Below are positions 2,627 to 33,023 of a DNA stretch of 34,883 nucleotides, piece by piece. Positions within the stretch are counted from its first letter, which is position 1, and every line of letters begins with the position of its first letter. The position numbers were made by a program, and so were the translations under genes. Source of the DNA: Alphaproteobacteria bacterium (GTDB lineage: Bacteria; Pseudomonadota; Alphaproteobacteria; Rs-D84; SZUA-605); assembly GCA_003250835.1 (NCBI GenBank), contig QKJL01000020.1, positions 1 through 34,883 of the forward strand, read 5' to 3'. Below the pieces are notes generated by a model that saw only the letters and a program-made list of their open reading frames with translations, was not told where the DNA came from and did not search any database.

Positions 2627-3781
2627 TTATTTTTTCTTCTTAGAAATGATTTCCAATATTTCTTCCACACGTTCCAACATTGCTTTCTTTGAAGGTTCTT
2701 CAAAATATGCACGTGCCGGAGCAAATAAATTAATCAAATAATCCGCTAAGTAATTTTTCACATCAATCGGATGTACATCTCCATTTTCAAACTTAGTCTG
2801 TAAATCAGCATAATCCGCAAATGAAATATTACCACCATGTTCATCAGGACGTTCAATTGTAATTCCTCCTGTTTCACGAGCAAACACAATCATATCCATC
2901 CATTCTAAAATGGGATTATAACCAATTTCTTTTTCCATACAGAACCCTTTCATAATCTTTTTACGAATTACTTGTGGATCATCCATCATAAACATCGCTG
3001 AATTAGGATCTGACTTACTCATCTTTCCTTTATTCAATAACTCACGTTTATCCATATCTTCTGGAATTGGCCAAATCGCAGGTTTCGCTAAGCTTGGTAA
3101 TAATTTAGTATGAATTGCAACTGGTTTCACACGTTTTCCATCAAACATAGGAGCATTCGTTTTAATCTTATCTGCCGTATCACGCATAATCACATGAATT
3201 TTACGTTGATCAATTCCACCTTGTGCAATTTGAATATTCATCGCAAAAATATCAGCCGCCTGCATAGGAGGATATGCCAAAGAACCAAAATCTTTTGCAG
3301 CCCCTTCTTCACGTCCCATAATCGAAATTGAACGCTCAATACGTGACAATGTTGTATTCTTAGAAACCTCTAAAAATGTAAGCCAAAAATCTGGATGCGA
3401 AGAATAATATTCAGACGCTGTAATAAAGTTTAATTTTTCAGGATCACCACCCAGCATTAAAATCGCCGCTTTAAAAATTTCCTTAAAATATCCATCTGCA
3501 ACTTCTTTGATCAAAACAAGATCGCCTGCAAACTTATCATTTAAATATGAATGCCAATCTGCTAGAAAAATATGAACCTTAATCCCAGCATCCATCAAAT
3601 CTTTCACTTTTTGCATAATCATCACAGCTTGACCAATATGCAATTTTCCTGAAATTTCAAAACCAACGTAATGATTGATTTCTTTACCACTTTCCAACAT
3701 CATTTTCAGTTCATCTGCACCAATAATTTCTTCTAAATTATTTGTAATTAAATCAAAACGTTCTTGTGTACTTAATGTCAT
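2627..3781 (-). CDS. tyrS: Tyrosyl-tRNA synthetase, archaeal/eukaryal type
   Basis: YVGFEISGKLHIGQ, GGIDQRKIHVIMRD, YPPMQAADI, KMSKS, VHPIDVKNYLADYLINLFAPAR. Start moved from 3838 to MTLSTQERF (3781), which has SD AAGGA; the 3838 ATG lies inside the T-box terminator. Confidence 0.9.
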   Translation of the reverse strand: MTLSTQERFDLITNNLEEIIGADELKMMLESGKEINHYVGFEISGKLHIGQAVMIMQKVKDLMDAGIKVHIFLADWHSYLNDKFAGDLVLIKEVADGYFKEIFKAAILMLGGDPEKLNFITASEYYSSHPDFWLTFLEVSKNTTLSRIERSISIMGREEGAAKDFGSLAYPPMQAADIFAMNIQIAQGGIDQRKIHVIMRDTADKIKTNAPMFDGKRVKPVAIHTKLLPSLAKPAIWPIPEDMDKRELLNKGKMSKSDPNSAMFMMDDPQVIRKKIMKGFCMEKEIGYNPILEWMDMIVFARETGGITIERPDEHGGNISFADYADLQTKFENGDVHPIDVKNYLADYLINLFAPARAYFEEPSKKAMLERVEEILEIISKKKK

Positions 3782-4082
3782 TTCATATTCCTTTTTATTG
3801 ACCAAAATTAAAAAAATCGTCCGTGTATACTGAGCCATTACAACTCAACATACAAGGACGATTCATCACCGTGGTACCACCTTGTTTCACAAATGTTTAA
3901 ACCATTTCATTTGCCTTTATCACATAATAACGATTGTCACCGTTGACACTGAACCTTTCGGCTTTTTGCGCCACCCCTCCACCAGAGCAATTCACATATA
4001 TTAATTACGTAACGGATCACACCACCCCGCTATCTCTCTATGTCACTTAATACAGCTACTGATCCTGATTTCAACAGGTTTA
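3782..4082 (-). promoter_or_regulatory. T-box-like riboswitch leader (antiterminator/terminator switch) of tyrS operon
   Basis: Minus strand ACAAGGUGGUACCACGGUGAUGAAUCGUCCUUGU matches the T-box antiterminator. Mutually exclusive terminator AAUCGUCC...GGACGAUU-UUUU (3863-3815). Upstream Stem I-like region with AGUA/GAA and AGAGAG motifs. Confidence 0.88.
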
Positions 4083-4088
4083 ACACAA

Positions 4089-22475: not shown

Positions 22476-24968
22476 TTAGTCAATTGTACCAAGTTCTTCA
22501 CCAACATCAGTTACACCACCACTAAATTCTTTAAAGATAGCTTTAGAGTCTTCCAAATCTCCTTCACCATATTTTTCAGCAAATTCTTGTAACATTTGCT
22601 CTGATGATGGAATTCTTATCTTAGCAGAAGATTTACCTGCTGATGGACCATCTTTAATTTTACAAGATTGAGCCCCTGTAGAACCATATTGAGTTTTACC
22701 CCAGAAATTCTTACCTGAAACAACTGTAAATCGAGCTAACTGACTACAAATAAGGTTTTGTTCATCATTTGAAACTGAATATGTTAACTCTTTAGACTGT
22801 CCATCAGAACTCTTATTAGAAGTTCCAGTAGCATTTGCATACGCAATAACAGTCACAATACATTTACCCTTTGTCCAAACTCCAACAGTCGCTTCACATG
22901 CACGTTTCATAGTCGCTTCTTGTTGAGCTGTCTTCATTTTTTGCACAGATGAAATTTGTTCCATCTTTGCTTCAGCTTCTTTTGCAAAAGCTTTTGCACG
23001 TTGTGTTTCTAAAGTAGACTTTTCTGTTTGTAAATTATATTGAACAGACATTTCAGCCACTTTAATATCTGTTTCTTTATTCAACTCTGATTTACGAATA
23101 TCTGTATCAAATTTATGATCAGCCATAATAACAGATTTTCCTTCTGCCATTAACTTCGTTGCATTTTCTTGGAAATAAACATTTGCTTTTCCTTGAACTT
23201 CTTGCCATACAGATGCCCACATTTGATCAATTGTTACTGAAGGATTTTCTTGGATAGATAATTCTTCTTCGTAACGAGCATACACTGAATAACAAGCTTC
23301 CTTAGCACTATCTTCTTCAACAATTTGTACACCGTATTTAGAAGCTTGATCTGACTTAGAAGTACAGTTCATTCCACCTTGACCACAAATTGATTTCAAA
23401 CATTTTTCCAAAGCTTTCTTTCCATCATCAGCAACATCATATTTTTTATGACGCGCTTCTGTTACAAATTCTTCTTCTTCAACACGTGCAGATTCTTTAA
23501 AAATATCTCCAGCTTTAATCAAGAACATTGCCCATGAACTTTCAGGATATTTACATCCTTTTAAAATATCAGTGAAATATGCTTTACGTTTAGCCAACTT
23601 AGCCAAATTAGCTCCTGTACATCCTGAATAAATAGTATCTTCACGATTTTTATTTTCACCATCTTCATCGAAAGCACTTGCTTTAATAGCATAATCTTGT
23701 CCTGTAAATGTACCATTACACATTTTACACATTTCATAATCACCACCACATAAAGTATCTTTTTGAGCTTGTTTATCCATTTCTTTCAAACAGGCAATAT
23801 TATCCAACTTCTTACTATATGTGTTAAACAATTCTTCCTTGTATTTACGTTGAGCCTTGTTATATGCACTTTCTAATTGAGAAATTTTCTTATCCAAAGC
23901 AGCGCCCATTTTATCACATGACTTAATCACGATATTTTGGTAAGTATCTTCAATAACTTGTGCATCAGCAGGGGCTGCAGCTAAAATAGGACCACAGATC
24001 TTCATCCCTTCTTTAAATAAAGATTTTCCACTCTTTGGTTTGCTAGCTGTATCAGCATAATCCATTTCATCATCCATAAAATCATCTAAACTAAAATCTT
24101 CTTCTTCTTCATCTTCTTCACCAAGCTCAACTTTAACTTTTTCAACAATTTGTTTATCATAGAATTCACGTTGTTCTTCTGTCATCTTTGCACGAGCAAC
24201 ATCTTCTTTCATAATTTTATTAATTGTAGCTTCCAAAGATTTAATTTCTTTTTCTTTCGGACTCATATTCTTATAGGCATTATCACAATAGCAACGTCCA
24301 TAAACTTCATGTTTACATACACGATCCATACATGCTGCAAATTTTGCTTCAACCTCAGAATTCATATCAATCATTAAATCAACTTCCTCAAGCTTTGCTT
24401 CAAAAGCAGCTTCTTTTTCTTCTAAGGTTGGTGTAGTTGTTGAACCAACAGTAGCCGCTGTAACTGCAGTTGATGATTGAGCAACACCAGCTGCTACAGG
24501 TAAACTGACAACTGTTGGTGCAGCAAATTGACCTGAACGACCTGATGATTGAGTTGATTTTACAGCAGAACGATTTCCAACACGCACCTCATCCATTTTA
24601 CCTGAACGACCTGAACGACCTAATGCTTGAGCTGACTTTCCTCCACGACGATTTGCAGATGATGCGCGACCCTCATCTACAGAAGCTGAAGAAACTCCAG
24701 ATTTACCTGAACGACCTGAACGACCTGATGATTGAGTTAAATCATCTGATGAATCACCACGTGATGGAGTTTGTCCACGACGCACTCCTGATTGTTCGTT
24801 ATCTAACTCTGATATTACAGACTTTCCTGAACGACCTGAACGACCAACAGATGTATAAACATTTGCCTCTCCTTCAACATCATCTACACGAGAACGACGT
24901 TGAGCAAACCCATCTACAGAAACCGTAACTATCGAAAAAACAAAAATAAAACTGAGTAATTTGCGCAT
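22476..24968 (-). CDS. Large putatively secreted protein with N-terminal GRSGRSGK repeats, Cys-rich and coiled-coil regions
   Basis: Signal peptide MRKLLSFIFVFSIVTVSVDGFAQ; repeats GRSGRSGKS/GRSGRSGKSG/GRSGRSGKM; strong SD AAGGAGGAG and promoter TTGTTT-17-TATAAT. Confidence 0.85.
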   Translation of the reverse strand: MRKLLSFIFVFSIVTVSVDGFAQRRSRVDDVEGEANVYTSVGRSGRSGKSVISELDNEQSGVRRGQTPSRGDSSDDLTQSSGRSGRSGKSGVSSASVDEGRASSANRRGGKSAQALGRSGRSGKMDEVRVGNRSAVKSTQSSGRSGQFAAPTVVSLPVAAGVAQSSTAVTAATVGSTTTPTLEEKEAAFEAKLEEVDLMIDMNSEVEAKFAACMDRVCKHEVYGRCYCDNAYKNMSPKEKEIKSLEATINKIMKEDVARAKMTEEQREFYDKQIVEKVKVELGEEDEEEEDFSLDDFMDDEMDYADTASKPKSGKSLFKEGMKICGPILAAAPADAQVIEDTYQNIVIKSCDKMGAALDKKISQLESAYNKAQRKYKEELFNTYSKKLDNIACLKEMDKQAQKDTLCGGDYEMCKMCNGTFTGQDYAIKASAFDEDGENKNREDTIYSGCTGANLAKLAKRKAYFTDILKGCKYPESSWAMFLIKAGDIFKESARVEEEEFVTEARHKKYDVADDGKKALEKCLKSICGQGGMNCTSKSDQASKYGVQIVEEDSAKEACYSVYARYEEELSIQENPSVTIDQMWASVWQEVQGKANVYFQENATKLMAEGKSVIMADHKFDTDIRKSELNKETDIKVAEMSVQYNLQTEKSTLETQRAKAFAKEAEAKMEQISSVQKMKTAQQEATMKRACEATVGVWTKGKCIVTVIAYANATGTSNKSSDGQSKELTYSVSNDEQNLICSQLARFTVVSGKNFWGKTQYGSTGAQSCKIKDGPSAGKSSAKIRIPSSEQMLQEFAEKYGEGDLEDSKAIFKEFSGGVTDVGEELGTID

Positions 24969-29912: not shown

Positions 29913-30362
29913 ATGAAAACCGTTAATTTGCACCGAAGTAAAAGTGGATTACCGATCTTAATGTTCTTACTATTCAGCATGGCAACAATTATTGCTGGAA
30001 TATTCCTATTTATAATAATTTATGCCCCATATGATGAAAATTCTGCATCAGGATTTAAAATACTGGTACTAATGGCGATTATTACAATATGTAGTGCAAA
30101 AGCAGTATACTTAGGATATCAAATCTATATCCTAAAAAAATACAGTGGTTGGCAAGAGCATATTGGAAAAGACATTGCTGTTTTAGTTAAACTAAATCCA
30201 AATACACGAATGATGGGCGGAGAATTAACCAGTTTAAAACATGGTAAAAAATACTTAGGATACATGACTCCAATAGAATTTTCCAAACAATCATATACGC
30301 ATAACAACATGGTTATGATTGATGGACAAGAATACAGCCCCGACGATCTCATTAACGCATAG
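29913..30362 (+). CDS. Hypothetical membrane protein, 149 aa, two N-terminal TM segments
   Basis: LPILMFLLFSMATIIAGIFLFIIIYA and FKILVLMAIITICSAKAVYLGY; own promoter and terminator. Confidence 0.65.
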   Translation: MKTVNLHRSKSGLPILMFLLFSMATIIAGIFLFIIIYAPYDENSASGFKILVLMAIITICSAKAVYLGYQIYILKKYSGWQEHIGKDIAVLVKLNPNTRMMGGELTSLKHGKKYLGYMTPIEFSKQSYTHNNMVMIDGQEYSPDDLINA

Positions 30363-30366
30363 TTTT

Positions 30367-30393
30367 AAAAGCCTCCTTGTGAGGCTTTTTTTT
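30367..30393 (+). terminator. Intrinsic terminator
   Basis: AAAAGCCTC CTTGT GAGGCTTTTTTTT. Confidence 0.85.
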
Positions 30394-30398
30394 AACAC

Positions 30399-30427
30399 TT
30401 GATTTTTTCCAATACCTTTCCTAAAAT
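30399..30427 (+). promoter_or_regulatory. Promoter of Val-rich leader ORF
   Basis: TTGATT-17 bp-TAAAAT; predicted start of transcription falls about at 30434. Confidence 0.6.
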
Positions 30428-30433
30428 AAACCT

Positions 30434-30481
30434 ATGACACATTCATACACAGTCTTTGTTGTTGTGAACGTAGTCGCCTAG
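30434..30481 (+). CDS. Putative valine-rich leader peptide MTHSYTVFVVVNVVA* upstream of valS
   Basis: 6 of 15 codons are Val (GTC, GTT, GTT, GTG, GTA, GTC); stop overlaps hairpin GTCGC CTAGC GCGAC; positioned between a promoter and valS. Confidence 0.6.
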   Translation: MTHSYTVFVVVNVVA

Positions 30482-30521
30482 CGCGACATTATTTCTACAT
30501 CTAAATTCCATATTTAAAAAC

Positions 30522-30550
30522 TTGAAAATTCTGAACATTCAGAATATACT
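30522..30550 (+). promoter_or_regulatory. Candidate proximal valS promoter with palindrome in the spacer
   Basis: TTGAAA-17 bp-TATACT; ATTCTGAA CA TTCAGAAT at 30528-30545. Confidence 0.6.
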
Positions 30551-30581
30551 CCAATGATCAAAAACAACAAGGATACAAACG

Positions 30582-33023
30582 ATGATAAAGATTAATATGA
30601 TTGAAAAAGGTTTCGACACAGCAGAACTCGAAACACGTAATCAAAAATTCTGGGATGAAAACAACTTTTGGGCATGTAACCCAAATTCAGATAAAAAACC
30701 TTTCTGTACAATGATGCCTCCTCCAAATATCACTGGATCTTTGCATATGGGACATATGTTAAATAATGCAACAACTGATTTCATGTGCCGTTATAAACGT
30801 ATGAAAGGATTTGACGTTCTTTGGCAACCTGGTACAGATCACGCAGCAATCGCAGCTCAAATGTTATTCGAAAAAGAACTTACAAAAAATAAAATCCGAA
30901 AAGAAGATCTTGGCCGTGAAGAATTCTTGCGTCAAATGTGGGAATGGGCAAACGGGATCGACTCAACAATCAAATCACAACTTCGTCGCCTTGGGGTAAC
31001 ACCTGATTGGAAACGCGAACGCTTCACATTAGATGAAGGTCTATCACACGCTGTACGTAAAGTATTCGTTGAAATGTATAAACGCGATATGATTTACCGC
31101 GGATCATACATGGTAAATTGGTGTCCAAAACAACAAACCGTACTTTCTGATCTCGAAGTAGAAAATAAAGAAGAAAATGGAAAGATGTACTACATCAAAT
31201 ATCCAGTTGATGGGACAAATGAAACAATCACTATTGGAACAACACGCCCTGAAACAATGTTTGGGGATATGGCTGTAGCTGTATCAGCAGATGATGATCG
31301 TTACAAACACTTAGTCGGTAAAATGATTAACCTTCCATTTACAGATCGTCAAATTCCAATTATTACAGACGAACATGCAGATCCTGAAAAAGGAACAGGC
31401 GCTGTAAAAATCACACCAGCACATGACTTTAATGATTTCGAGGTAGGAAAACGTCACAATCTTCCTGAATTAACAGTCATGAATGCATATGCAAAAATGA
31501 ATGAAAACGCACCAGAAAAATACCAAGGTATGAACCGTTTTGATTGCCGTAAATCTGTTATTGAAGATTTAAAAGAATTGGGACTGTTTGAAAAAGCCGA
31601 AGATCAAATTATGCAAATACCATATTCAGAACGTGGCGGCGTAGTTGTTGAACCACGTATCACAACACAATGGTATGCACGTGCAACAAAACTTGCTGAT
31701 AAAGCAATCCAAGTAGTAGAAGATGGAGAAATCACATTCCAACCAGAACACCGTAAAAACCTTTATATGGCATGGATGCGTGAAATCAAAGACTGGTGTA
31801 TCTCTCGTCAATTATGGTGGGGACATCAAATCCCAGCATGGTATGCAGAAGACGGGACAACATTCGTAGAAGAAACAGAAGAAGAAGCCCATCACGTTGC
31901 TGAATTACACTTTGGAAAACCTGTAGAATTGACACGTGACCAAGATAGCTTAGACACATGGTTCTCATCTGGTCTATGGCCATTCTCAACACTCGGCTGG
32001 CCAGACCAAACAAAAGAATTAGATCGTTATTACACAACAGATTATCTAAGCACAGCAGCAGATATTATCTTCTTTTGGGTAGCCCGTATGATCATGATGG
32101 GATTGGATACAACAGGAAAAATTCCTTTCAAACATGTATATTTCCATGGATTAGTACGTGATGCAAAAGGACAAAAAATGTCTAAAACAAAAGGGAATGG
32201 AACAGATCCAAAAGAACCAATGGATAAATATGGCGTAGATGCATTACGTTACTGGGCGGCTGGTATCCCAATGGGGGCAGATGGAAAATATAATGATGAT
32301 GATGTAAAAATTGGGCGTAAATTAATTGTAAAATTATGGAATGCCACCCGTTTTGGATTAATGCAATTAGAAGAAAATTTTGATCCATCAGCAACAGCTT
32401 TGCCTGTATCTGAACGAACATTGGAAGATCGTTGGTTATTATCAGAATTAAATAAAACAATTGCTGAACATGCACGTTACATGGATAAATATGATAACTT
32501 CCAAGCACGTAACACGATTGATACATTTTTCTGGAATACATTCTGTGATAACTATCTTGAAATTATCAAAGACCGTTTCTGGAACCCAGAACGTTATAAT
32601 GATGCGGCACGGGTATCGGCTCAATGGACACTATGGGAATCTCTCCGTACAATCATCGGATTATTTGCACCATTTATTCCATTTATAACAGAAGAATTAT
32701 ACCAACAAATCTTTAAACAATTCGAAGGAACGGAAACACTGCACTTAACAACATTCCCAGAAGTAAAAGATGAATGGAATACAAATGTCGATGATATGAA
32801 AGGAATGTTAGATGTATTGCATGCAATCCGTCAACAACGTACAAATGATAAACTTGGAACAGGACAAGTAGAAACAGTAGCAATTACAACAAACATAGAA
32901 TTGTTTGAACTACTCAAAAAATACGAAACCATGATGCAAGCAATCGCACGTACAGAAAACTTAGAATTGGAAAGTGGTTCAGATGAAATTAAAATCAAAA
33001 TCACCCCAAAACTAAAAGACTAA
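30582..33023 (+). CDS. valS: Valyl-tRNA synthetase (short form)
   Basis: PPPNITGSLHMGHMLNNATTDFMCRYKRMKGFDVLWQPGTDHAAI...KMSKTKGNGTDP; SD AAGGA. Confidence 0.95.
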   Translation: MIKINMIEKGFDTAELETRNQKFWDENNFWACNPNSDKKPFCTMMPPPNITGSLHMGHMLNNATTDFMCRYKRMKGFDVLWQPGTDHAAIAAQMLFEKELTKNKIRKEDLGREEFLRQMWEWANGIDSTIKSQLRRLGVTPDWKRERFTLDEGLSHAVRKVFVEMYKRDMIYRGSYMVNWCPKQQTVLSDLEVENKEENGKMYYIKYPVDGTNETITIGTTRPETMFGDMAVAVSADDDRYKHLVGKMINLPFTDRQIPIITDEHADPEKGTGAVKITPAHDFNDFEVGKRHNLPELTVMNAYAKMNENAPEKYQGMNRFDCRKSVIEDLKELGLFEKAEDQIMQIPYSERGGVVVEPRITTQWYARATKLADKAIQVVEDGEITFQPEHRKNLYMAWMREIKDWCISRQLWWGHQIPAWYAEDGTTFVEETEEEAHHVAELHFGKPVELTRDQDSLDTWFSSGLWPFSTLGWPDQTKELDRYYTTDYLSTAADIIFFWVARMIMMGLDTTGKIPFKHVYFHGLVRDAKGQKMSKTKGNGTDPKEPMDKYGVDALRYWAAGIPMGADGKYNDDDVKIGRKLIVKLWNATRFGLMQLEENFDPSATALPVSERTLEDRWLLSELNKTIAEHARYMDKYDNFQARNTIDTFFWNTFCDNYLEIIKDRFWNPERYNDAARVSAQWTLWESLRTIIGLFAPFIPFITEELYQQIFKQFEGTETLHLTTFPEVKDEWNTNVDDMKGMLDVLHAIRQQRTNDKLGTGQVETVAITTNIELFELLKKYETMMQAIARTENLELESGSDEIKIKITPKLKD

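Follow-up and report, generated by a model that had tools for sequence, protein, structure and literature searches.

The valine--tRNA ligase gene valS of an alphaproteobacterium of the order Rs-D84 is, with a probability that we put at about two in three, partly controlled by a cis-acting valine leader peptide, and a second, gene-proximal promoter (P2) would supply a basal transcript. The gene lies on a contig of 34,883 nucleotides, referred to here as the window, which is one of the 39 contigs of a 671-kb genome that is 84% complete. Its identity, as proposed in an earlier note on this DNA, is borne out by family models: the 813-amino-acid protein encoded at positions 30582 to 33023 of the forward strand matches NF004349 with 1013 bits and TIGR00422 with 969 bits, and its nearest named relatives come from uncultured Alphaproteobacteria and from "Candidatus Enterousia," a member of the order Rs-D84, whose gut bacteria have reduced genomes without complete amino acid biosynthesis (PMC12306168). 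What we observed is the anatomy of the leader, which is rare, is shared within this genome by the leaders of thrS, serS and probably lysS, and, in the case of thrS and serS, is conserved among relatives. It is likely that the leader is real and that control of valS is mediated by ribosomes, whereas the details of the mechanism are ones that we infer.

The leader begins directly behind an intrinsic terminator (30367 to 30393, forward strand; AAAAGCCTC-loop-GAGGCTTTT followed by a T-run, −11.1 kcal/mol) that belongs to an upstream gene of unknown function (29913 to 30362) and that reads AAAAGCCTC...GAGGCTTTTTTTT. Given that the end of this terminator immediately precedes the leader promoter, P1, this promoter appears to start a new transcription unit that is isolated from upstream transcription. 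P1 (TTGATT-17-TAAAAT, 30399 to 30427, forward strand) has its −35 element at 30399 to 30404 and its −10 element at 30422 to 30427, followed by AAACCT; the promoter elements are thus as described before, but the gap to the ATG is 6 nucleotides (nt) and not 7. The open reading frame (ORF) at 30434 to 30481 of the forward strand encodes MTHSYTVFVVVNVVA, has no Shine-Dalgarno sequence and is probably leaderless. Six of its 15 codons are Val codons (GTC GTT GTT GTG GTA GTC), with all four possible Val codons present, and its stop codon TAG (30479 to 30481) falls in the loop of hairpin H1 (GTCGC-CTAGC-GCGAC, 30473 to 30487, forward strand, 5 bp, −5.8 kcal/mol). The last Val codon forms the start of the 5′ arm of H1, and the hairpin is followed by a weak T-rich tail (ATTATTTCTA, 30488 to 30497, forward strand). 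In all of these features (a Val-rich ORF of 15 codons, the use of all four Val codons, a hairpin over the stop codon and a weak T-rich run), the sequence agrees with the earlier description. The combination of H1 with its tail ATTATTTCTA is weak, at 5 bp, and fits a loose terminator pattern only. No strong terminator is visible between the leader and valS, whose ribosome-binding site (RBS) is the AAGGA at 30569 to 30573 (forward strand).

The valine content of this ORF is difficult to obtain by chance, since none of 20,000 versions of the intergenic region shuffled by dinucleotides had an ORF of 8 to 25 amino acids with at least six Val residues and at least 40% Val, and a comparable enrichment for any amino acid occurred in 0.24% of dinucleotide shuffles. 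A point against the leader is that two of its six Val codons are GTC, which makes up just 2% of the Val codons in ten genes of the window. P1 by itself is weak evidence for the leader: it scores 9/12, and 4.7 promoter-like sites are expected by chance in 950 bp of such AT-rich sequence. A 9/12 site placed 5 to 11 nt before a fixed ATG occurs in 1.5% of shuffles.

What speaks most strongly for a genuine valS leader is the specificity of a scan for its anatomy that ignores amino acids altogether and demands a promoter, a start codon at the 5′ end of the transcript, a short ORF and a hairpin at its end. As the genome background, we used eight stretches that together comprise 159 kb, with both strands scanned; these stretches were picked before the positions of serS and lysS were known, and one of them was picked near leuS. 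The strict version of the scan returned serS and valS only, with 0 matches in the reversed-sequence control, and the relaxed version added lysS only, with 4 matches in the reversed control. All three matches in the 159 kb (valS, serS and lysS) are located directly upstream of synthetase genes. No leader of such anatomy was found at leuS and proS of this genome.

The leaders found before the other synthetase genes of this genome, whose identities were confirmed by family models (thrS, TIGR00418; serS, TIGR00414; lysS, TIGR00499), share the anatomy of the valS leader. The thrS leader reads TTGACG-17-TAGTAT-7 nt-ATG and encodes MKLTQIFFFITTTTPLGE, with the hairpin CCCCTTTGGGG over the end of the ORF, and the serS leader reads TTGCTT-17-TAAAAT-6 nt-ATG and encodes MMEINLSLFVVSRMSSPVLG, with the hairpin CCCCTGTGCTGGGG running into the stop codon; the 6-nt gap behind P1 is close to both. 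In all three leaders (valS, thrS and serS), the 5′ arm of the H1-type hairpin shares bases with the last cognate codon or borders directly on it (GTC GCC TAG CGC GAC in valS, ACC CCT TTG GGG in thrS and TCC CCT GTG CTG GGG in serS), and the T-runs after the hairpin are weak. The lysS leader (TTGATT-17-TATGCT-8 nt-ATG) encodes MRTIIFQYCRKHGS with a single Lys codon, which lies in the loop of a hairpin (GCCGAAAACACGGC) that is followed by GACGC..GCGTC.

Among thrS and serS loci drawn from several families of the order, the anatomy is conserved. A scan that asked for a promoter with an AUG 5 to 11 nt after the −10 element, an ORF of 8 to 28 amino acids and a hairpin over the end of the ORF, irrespective of the amino acids encoded, found it in 27/30 thrS loci, all of them with Thr-rich ORFs (e.g., MKKYFVFFVTTTTTPAGV) and a CCCC..GGGG hairpin, and, by the strict scan, in 10/30 serS loci, all of them with Ser-rich ORFs (e.g., MKIVCVFFSSISSPLGE), beyond which further, looser serS leaders were recognized by eye. 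Two genomes with a serS leader carry CCGC..GCGG instead of CCCC..GGGG. This conservation extends over genomes whose ThrRS and SerRS are just about 52 to 65% identical. Given that the −10 element ends only 6 to 10 nt before the AUG in the 26 thrS leaders measured and that these have no evident Shine-Dalgarno sequence, they are probably leaderless or nearly so; the leaderless start that had been proposed for the valS leader, with its gap of 6 nt, fits this range. Consensus folds of the thrS and serS leaders recovered H1 alone. A second hairpin (TTGCGG..CCGC and similar) was seen by eye in many of them, in an alignment too poor for a count, and covariation in the hairpins is weak, with two serS sequences swapping C-G for G-C at one pair.

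The valS leader itself was found in one genome. The anatomy scan over 54 valS loci of the order gave one match, the window's own, and the run of Val codons, whose conservation in other valS leaders the earlier note had looked to, was encountered in 0/53 relatives from the order, a comparison in which the host family is represented by this single genome so that close relatives are absent from it, and in 0/65 more distant valS upstream regions. At the DNA level, a comparison of the leader region across 201 genomes of the order returned nothing beyond short AT-rich chance matches, and Rfam gave no match above noise at the valS leader.

Two features that the earlier note does not mention lie between the leader and valS. 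The promoter P2 (TTGAAA-17-TATACT, 30522 to 30550, forward strand) outscores P1 (10/12 versus 9/12), and its −10 element ends 31 nt before the ATG of valS. A TTGAW box is located 40 to 75 nt (mostly 54 to 67 nt) before valS in 34/40 loci examined, with that of P2 at 60 nt, and a site as good as P2 at such a distance occurs in 1.9% of shuffles. Since P2 occupies the position of the relatives' valS promoter and lies 3′ of the leader, part of the valS mRNA is probably made without the leader. The spacer of P2 is filled by a perfect inverted repeat (ATTCTGAACATTCAGAAT, 30528 to 30545, forward strand, −6.4 kcal/mol), the sole exact copy in the genome, although 4.9% of shuffles contain an inverted repeat of 7 bp or longer. 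This repeat may be a second hairpin (H2) of the P1 transcript or an operator within the P2 spacer.

These observations on P2 bear on the possibility that valS is transcribed from P2 alone and that the leader region is unused, with the GTTGTTGTG run being a chance ORF behind a promoter-like sequence. The higher score of P2 and its placement where relatives have their valS promoter speak for this explanation, as does the lack of a Val leader in every relative compared. We nevertheless consider it unlikely, because the valine content was reached in none of the 20,000 shuffles and because the blind scan of 159 kb selected serS, lysS and valS and nothing else. For the Val-tRNA-dependent control proposed earlier, the outcome is accordingly mixed: it gains plausibility from the cognate thrS and serS leaders, but P2 lies 3′ of the leader, and the leader was seen in none of the relatives compared, all from outside its family.

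Under the reading that we prefer, in which the leader peptide acts in cis, ribosomes translating the leader probably detect when charged Val-tRNA runs short, and the production of ValRS is adjusted accordingly. The valS leader is built like those of thrS and serS in its order, and because these have the same anatomy, cognate codons and conservation between genomes, control of valS by ribosomes at cognate codons is plausible. The 5′ end of the P1 mRNA would lie at, or within one base of, the AUG of the leader, where ribosomes would start in the leaderless mode. When Val-tRNA is well charged, ribosomes would traverse the Val codons and leave, and H1 would form at the end of the ORF, so that less RNA would reach valS, either because transcription terminates weakly at this intrinsic signal or because of a similar block. 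When charged Val-tRNA is scarce, a ribosome would stall in the Val codons. Waiting on the last of them (30464 to 30475), it would sit over the 5′ arm of H1, whose first bases belong to the last Val codon; H1 would thus be masked, and valS would be expressed. Throughout, P2 would provide a basal, leader-independent valS transcript. A real weakness of this model is that the sign of control depends on the site of the stall, since H1 would stay free if the ribosome were held as early as the first Val codon (30452), which gives the wrong sign. Attenuation of the pheST type, cited in the earlier note, finds no support in that no classical terminator/antiterminator pair is visible; no antiterminator competing with H1 appeared in folds of the valS leader or in the consensus folds of the sister leaders.

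A stall at early Val codons would have the right sign if control were translational, that is, if the Val codons paired with the RBS of valS in the P1 transcript and a stalled ribosome freed the RBS. A third feature beyond the earlier note, a complementarity between CTTTGTTGTT in the Val codons (30454 to 30463, forward strand) and AACAACAAGG at the RBS (30563 to 30572), would allow such a 10-bp duplex, which is possibly due to chance. Its strength, −15.1 kcal/mol, was reached by 16/2000 shuffles (0.8%) and by 25/2000 recodings of the same peptide (1.25%), and the fold has a z-score of −2.7. However, this pairing was one of several inspected, the same AACAACAAGG context precedes valS in three relatives without the leader, and no comparable pairing is evident for the Thr or Ser codons in the sister leaders, which makes translational control through the RBS quite improbable in our view. 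We give still less credence to an action in trans, in which a short RNA ended at H1, together with the peptide, would work like peTrpL/rnTrpL of Sinorhizobium meliloti. A leaderless short ORF with a terminator-like hairpin is indeed what rnTrpL looks like (PMC7298713), but nothing indicates a target here, and every such unit that we found directly precedes a synthetase gene, so that a role in trans is very hard to credit next to control in cis.

Synthetase genes preceded by cognate leader peptides are already known, and the valS leader would add one more. A close case is Streptomyces lividans TK24, which has leaderless leader peptides before thrS, leuS and trpS as well as a leader before alaS (PMC8079986). 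There, a short cognate ORF is transcribed from its AUG, as the valS leader probably is, directly before the synthetase gene and comes with a hairpin, often without a clear U-run; however, this is another phylum, has no valS case and has mapped 5′ ends, whereas the 5′ end of the valS leader is predicted from sequence. In S. meliloti, the leaderless trpL attenuator precedes trpE(G) (PMC7298713). It shares with the valS leader an alphaproteobacterial origin and a short ORF (14 codons), and it has a transcript that starts at the AUG, as that of P1 probably does, and a terminator hairpin, to which H1 may correspond, but it serves a biosynthetic operon through alternative antiterminator and terminator structures, in contrast to the one hairpin over the stop codon at valS. 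In actinobacteria, candidate leader peptides described for ilvB operons have branched-chain codons that overlap a terminator hairpin (PMC1262725); their codon runs, which include Val, extend into the hairpin much as at valS, although they belong to a biosynthetic operon and have clear poly-U tracts. Attenuators have further been described for leuS and trpS in Streptomyces and for pheST in gammaproteobacteria (PMC1262725), and in Caulobacter, trpS is preceded by a leader coding sequence and an ilv operon by an Ile/Val leader (PMC4117421). With the thrS and serS leaders of its own order, the valS leader shares the promoter, an AUG 6 to 10 nt after the −10 element, cognate codons and a hairpin whose arm reaches the last of these codons; in many of them, as judged by eye, a second hairpin lies further 3′, to which H2 may correspond. 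However, those leaders are conserved and have CCCC..GGGG or CCGC..GCGG hairpins, while the valS leader occurs in one genome and has GTCGC..GCGAC. In the open-access literature, outside which most subscription journals lie, a leader peptide of valS did not come up, nor, within the same scope, did thrS or serS leaders in the order Rs-D84. Conserved thrS and serS leaders came to light here across an entire order of gut bacteria that are uncultured and have reduced genomes. If confirmed, the matching units of valS, thrS and serS would form a natural set for testing attenuation by one hairpin.

Another device that senses tRNA charging before synthetase genes is the T-box riboswitch, which binds uncharged tRNA directly. 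A T-box (RF00230) precedes tyrS in the window, while none was matched at valS. The tyrS gene (2627 to 3838, minus strand) is of the archaeal type (PRK08560), and its T-box lies at 3851 to 4083 of the minus strand, with a score of 90.4 bits (E value of 5e-21) that is just below the Rfam gathering score of 93. Upstream of aspS of the same genome, there is a T-box match of 44 bits. Across the order, T-box matches at an E value of 0.001 or lower, below the Rfam cutoff, occur in 107/191 genomes, and in all 30 loci inspected, the GGTGGNRCCRCG core is followed by an ORF resembling AspRS, TyrRS or AsnRS (as judged by eye from the N terminus). Among the 125 proteobacterial genomes of a survey from 2008, only those of Geobacter and Pelobacter had T-boxes, which were located upstream of leuA (PMC2494555).

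Since the order lacks complete amino acid biosynthesis (PMC12306168), synthetases would be the natural target of charging sensors. We tentatively suggest, as a possibility somewhat short of even odds, that leaderless synthetase leaders without Shine-Dalgarno sequences (thrS, serS, here valS and perhaps lysS), acting by the masking of one hairpin without an antiterminator, form together with the T-boxes on aspS, tyrS and asnS the main amino acid sensor of the reduced genomes of Rs-D84. If true, leaderless minigenes and T-boxes that sense tRNA charging would be an amino acid response that survives genome reduction.

Elsewhere in the window, an Rfam match to Alpha_RBS (RF00140; 9081 to 9172, minus strand), whose 38 bits equal the gathering score, lies ahead of ribosomal protein genes and rpoA, and an 830-amino-acid protein (22476 to 24968, minus strand) combines a signal-like N terminus with repeats of the SGRSGRSGKS type.
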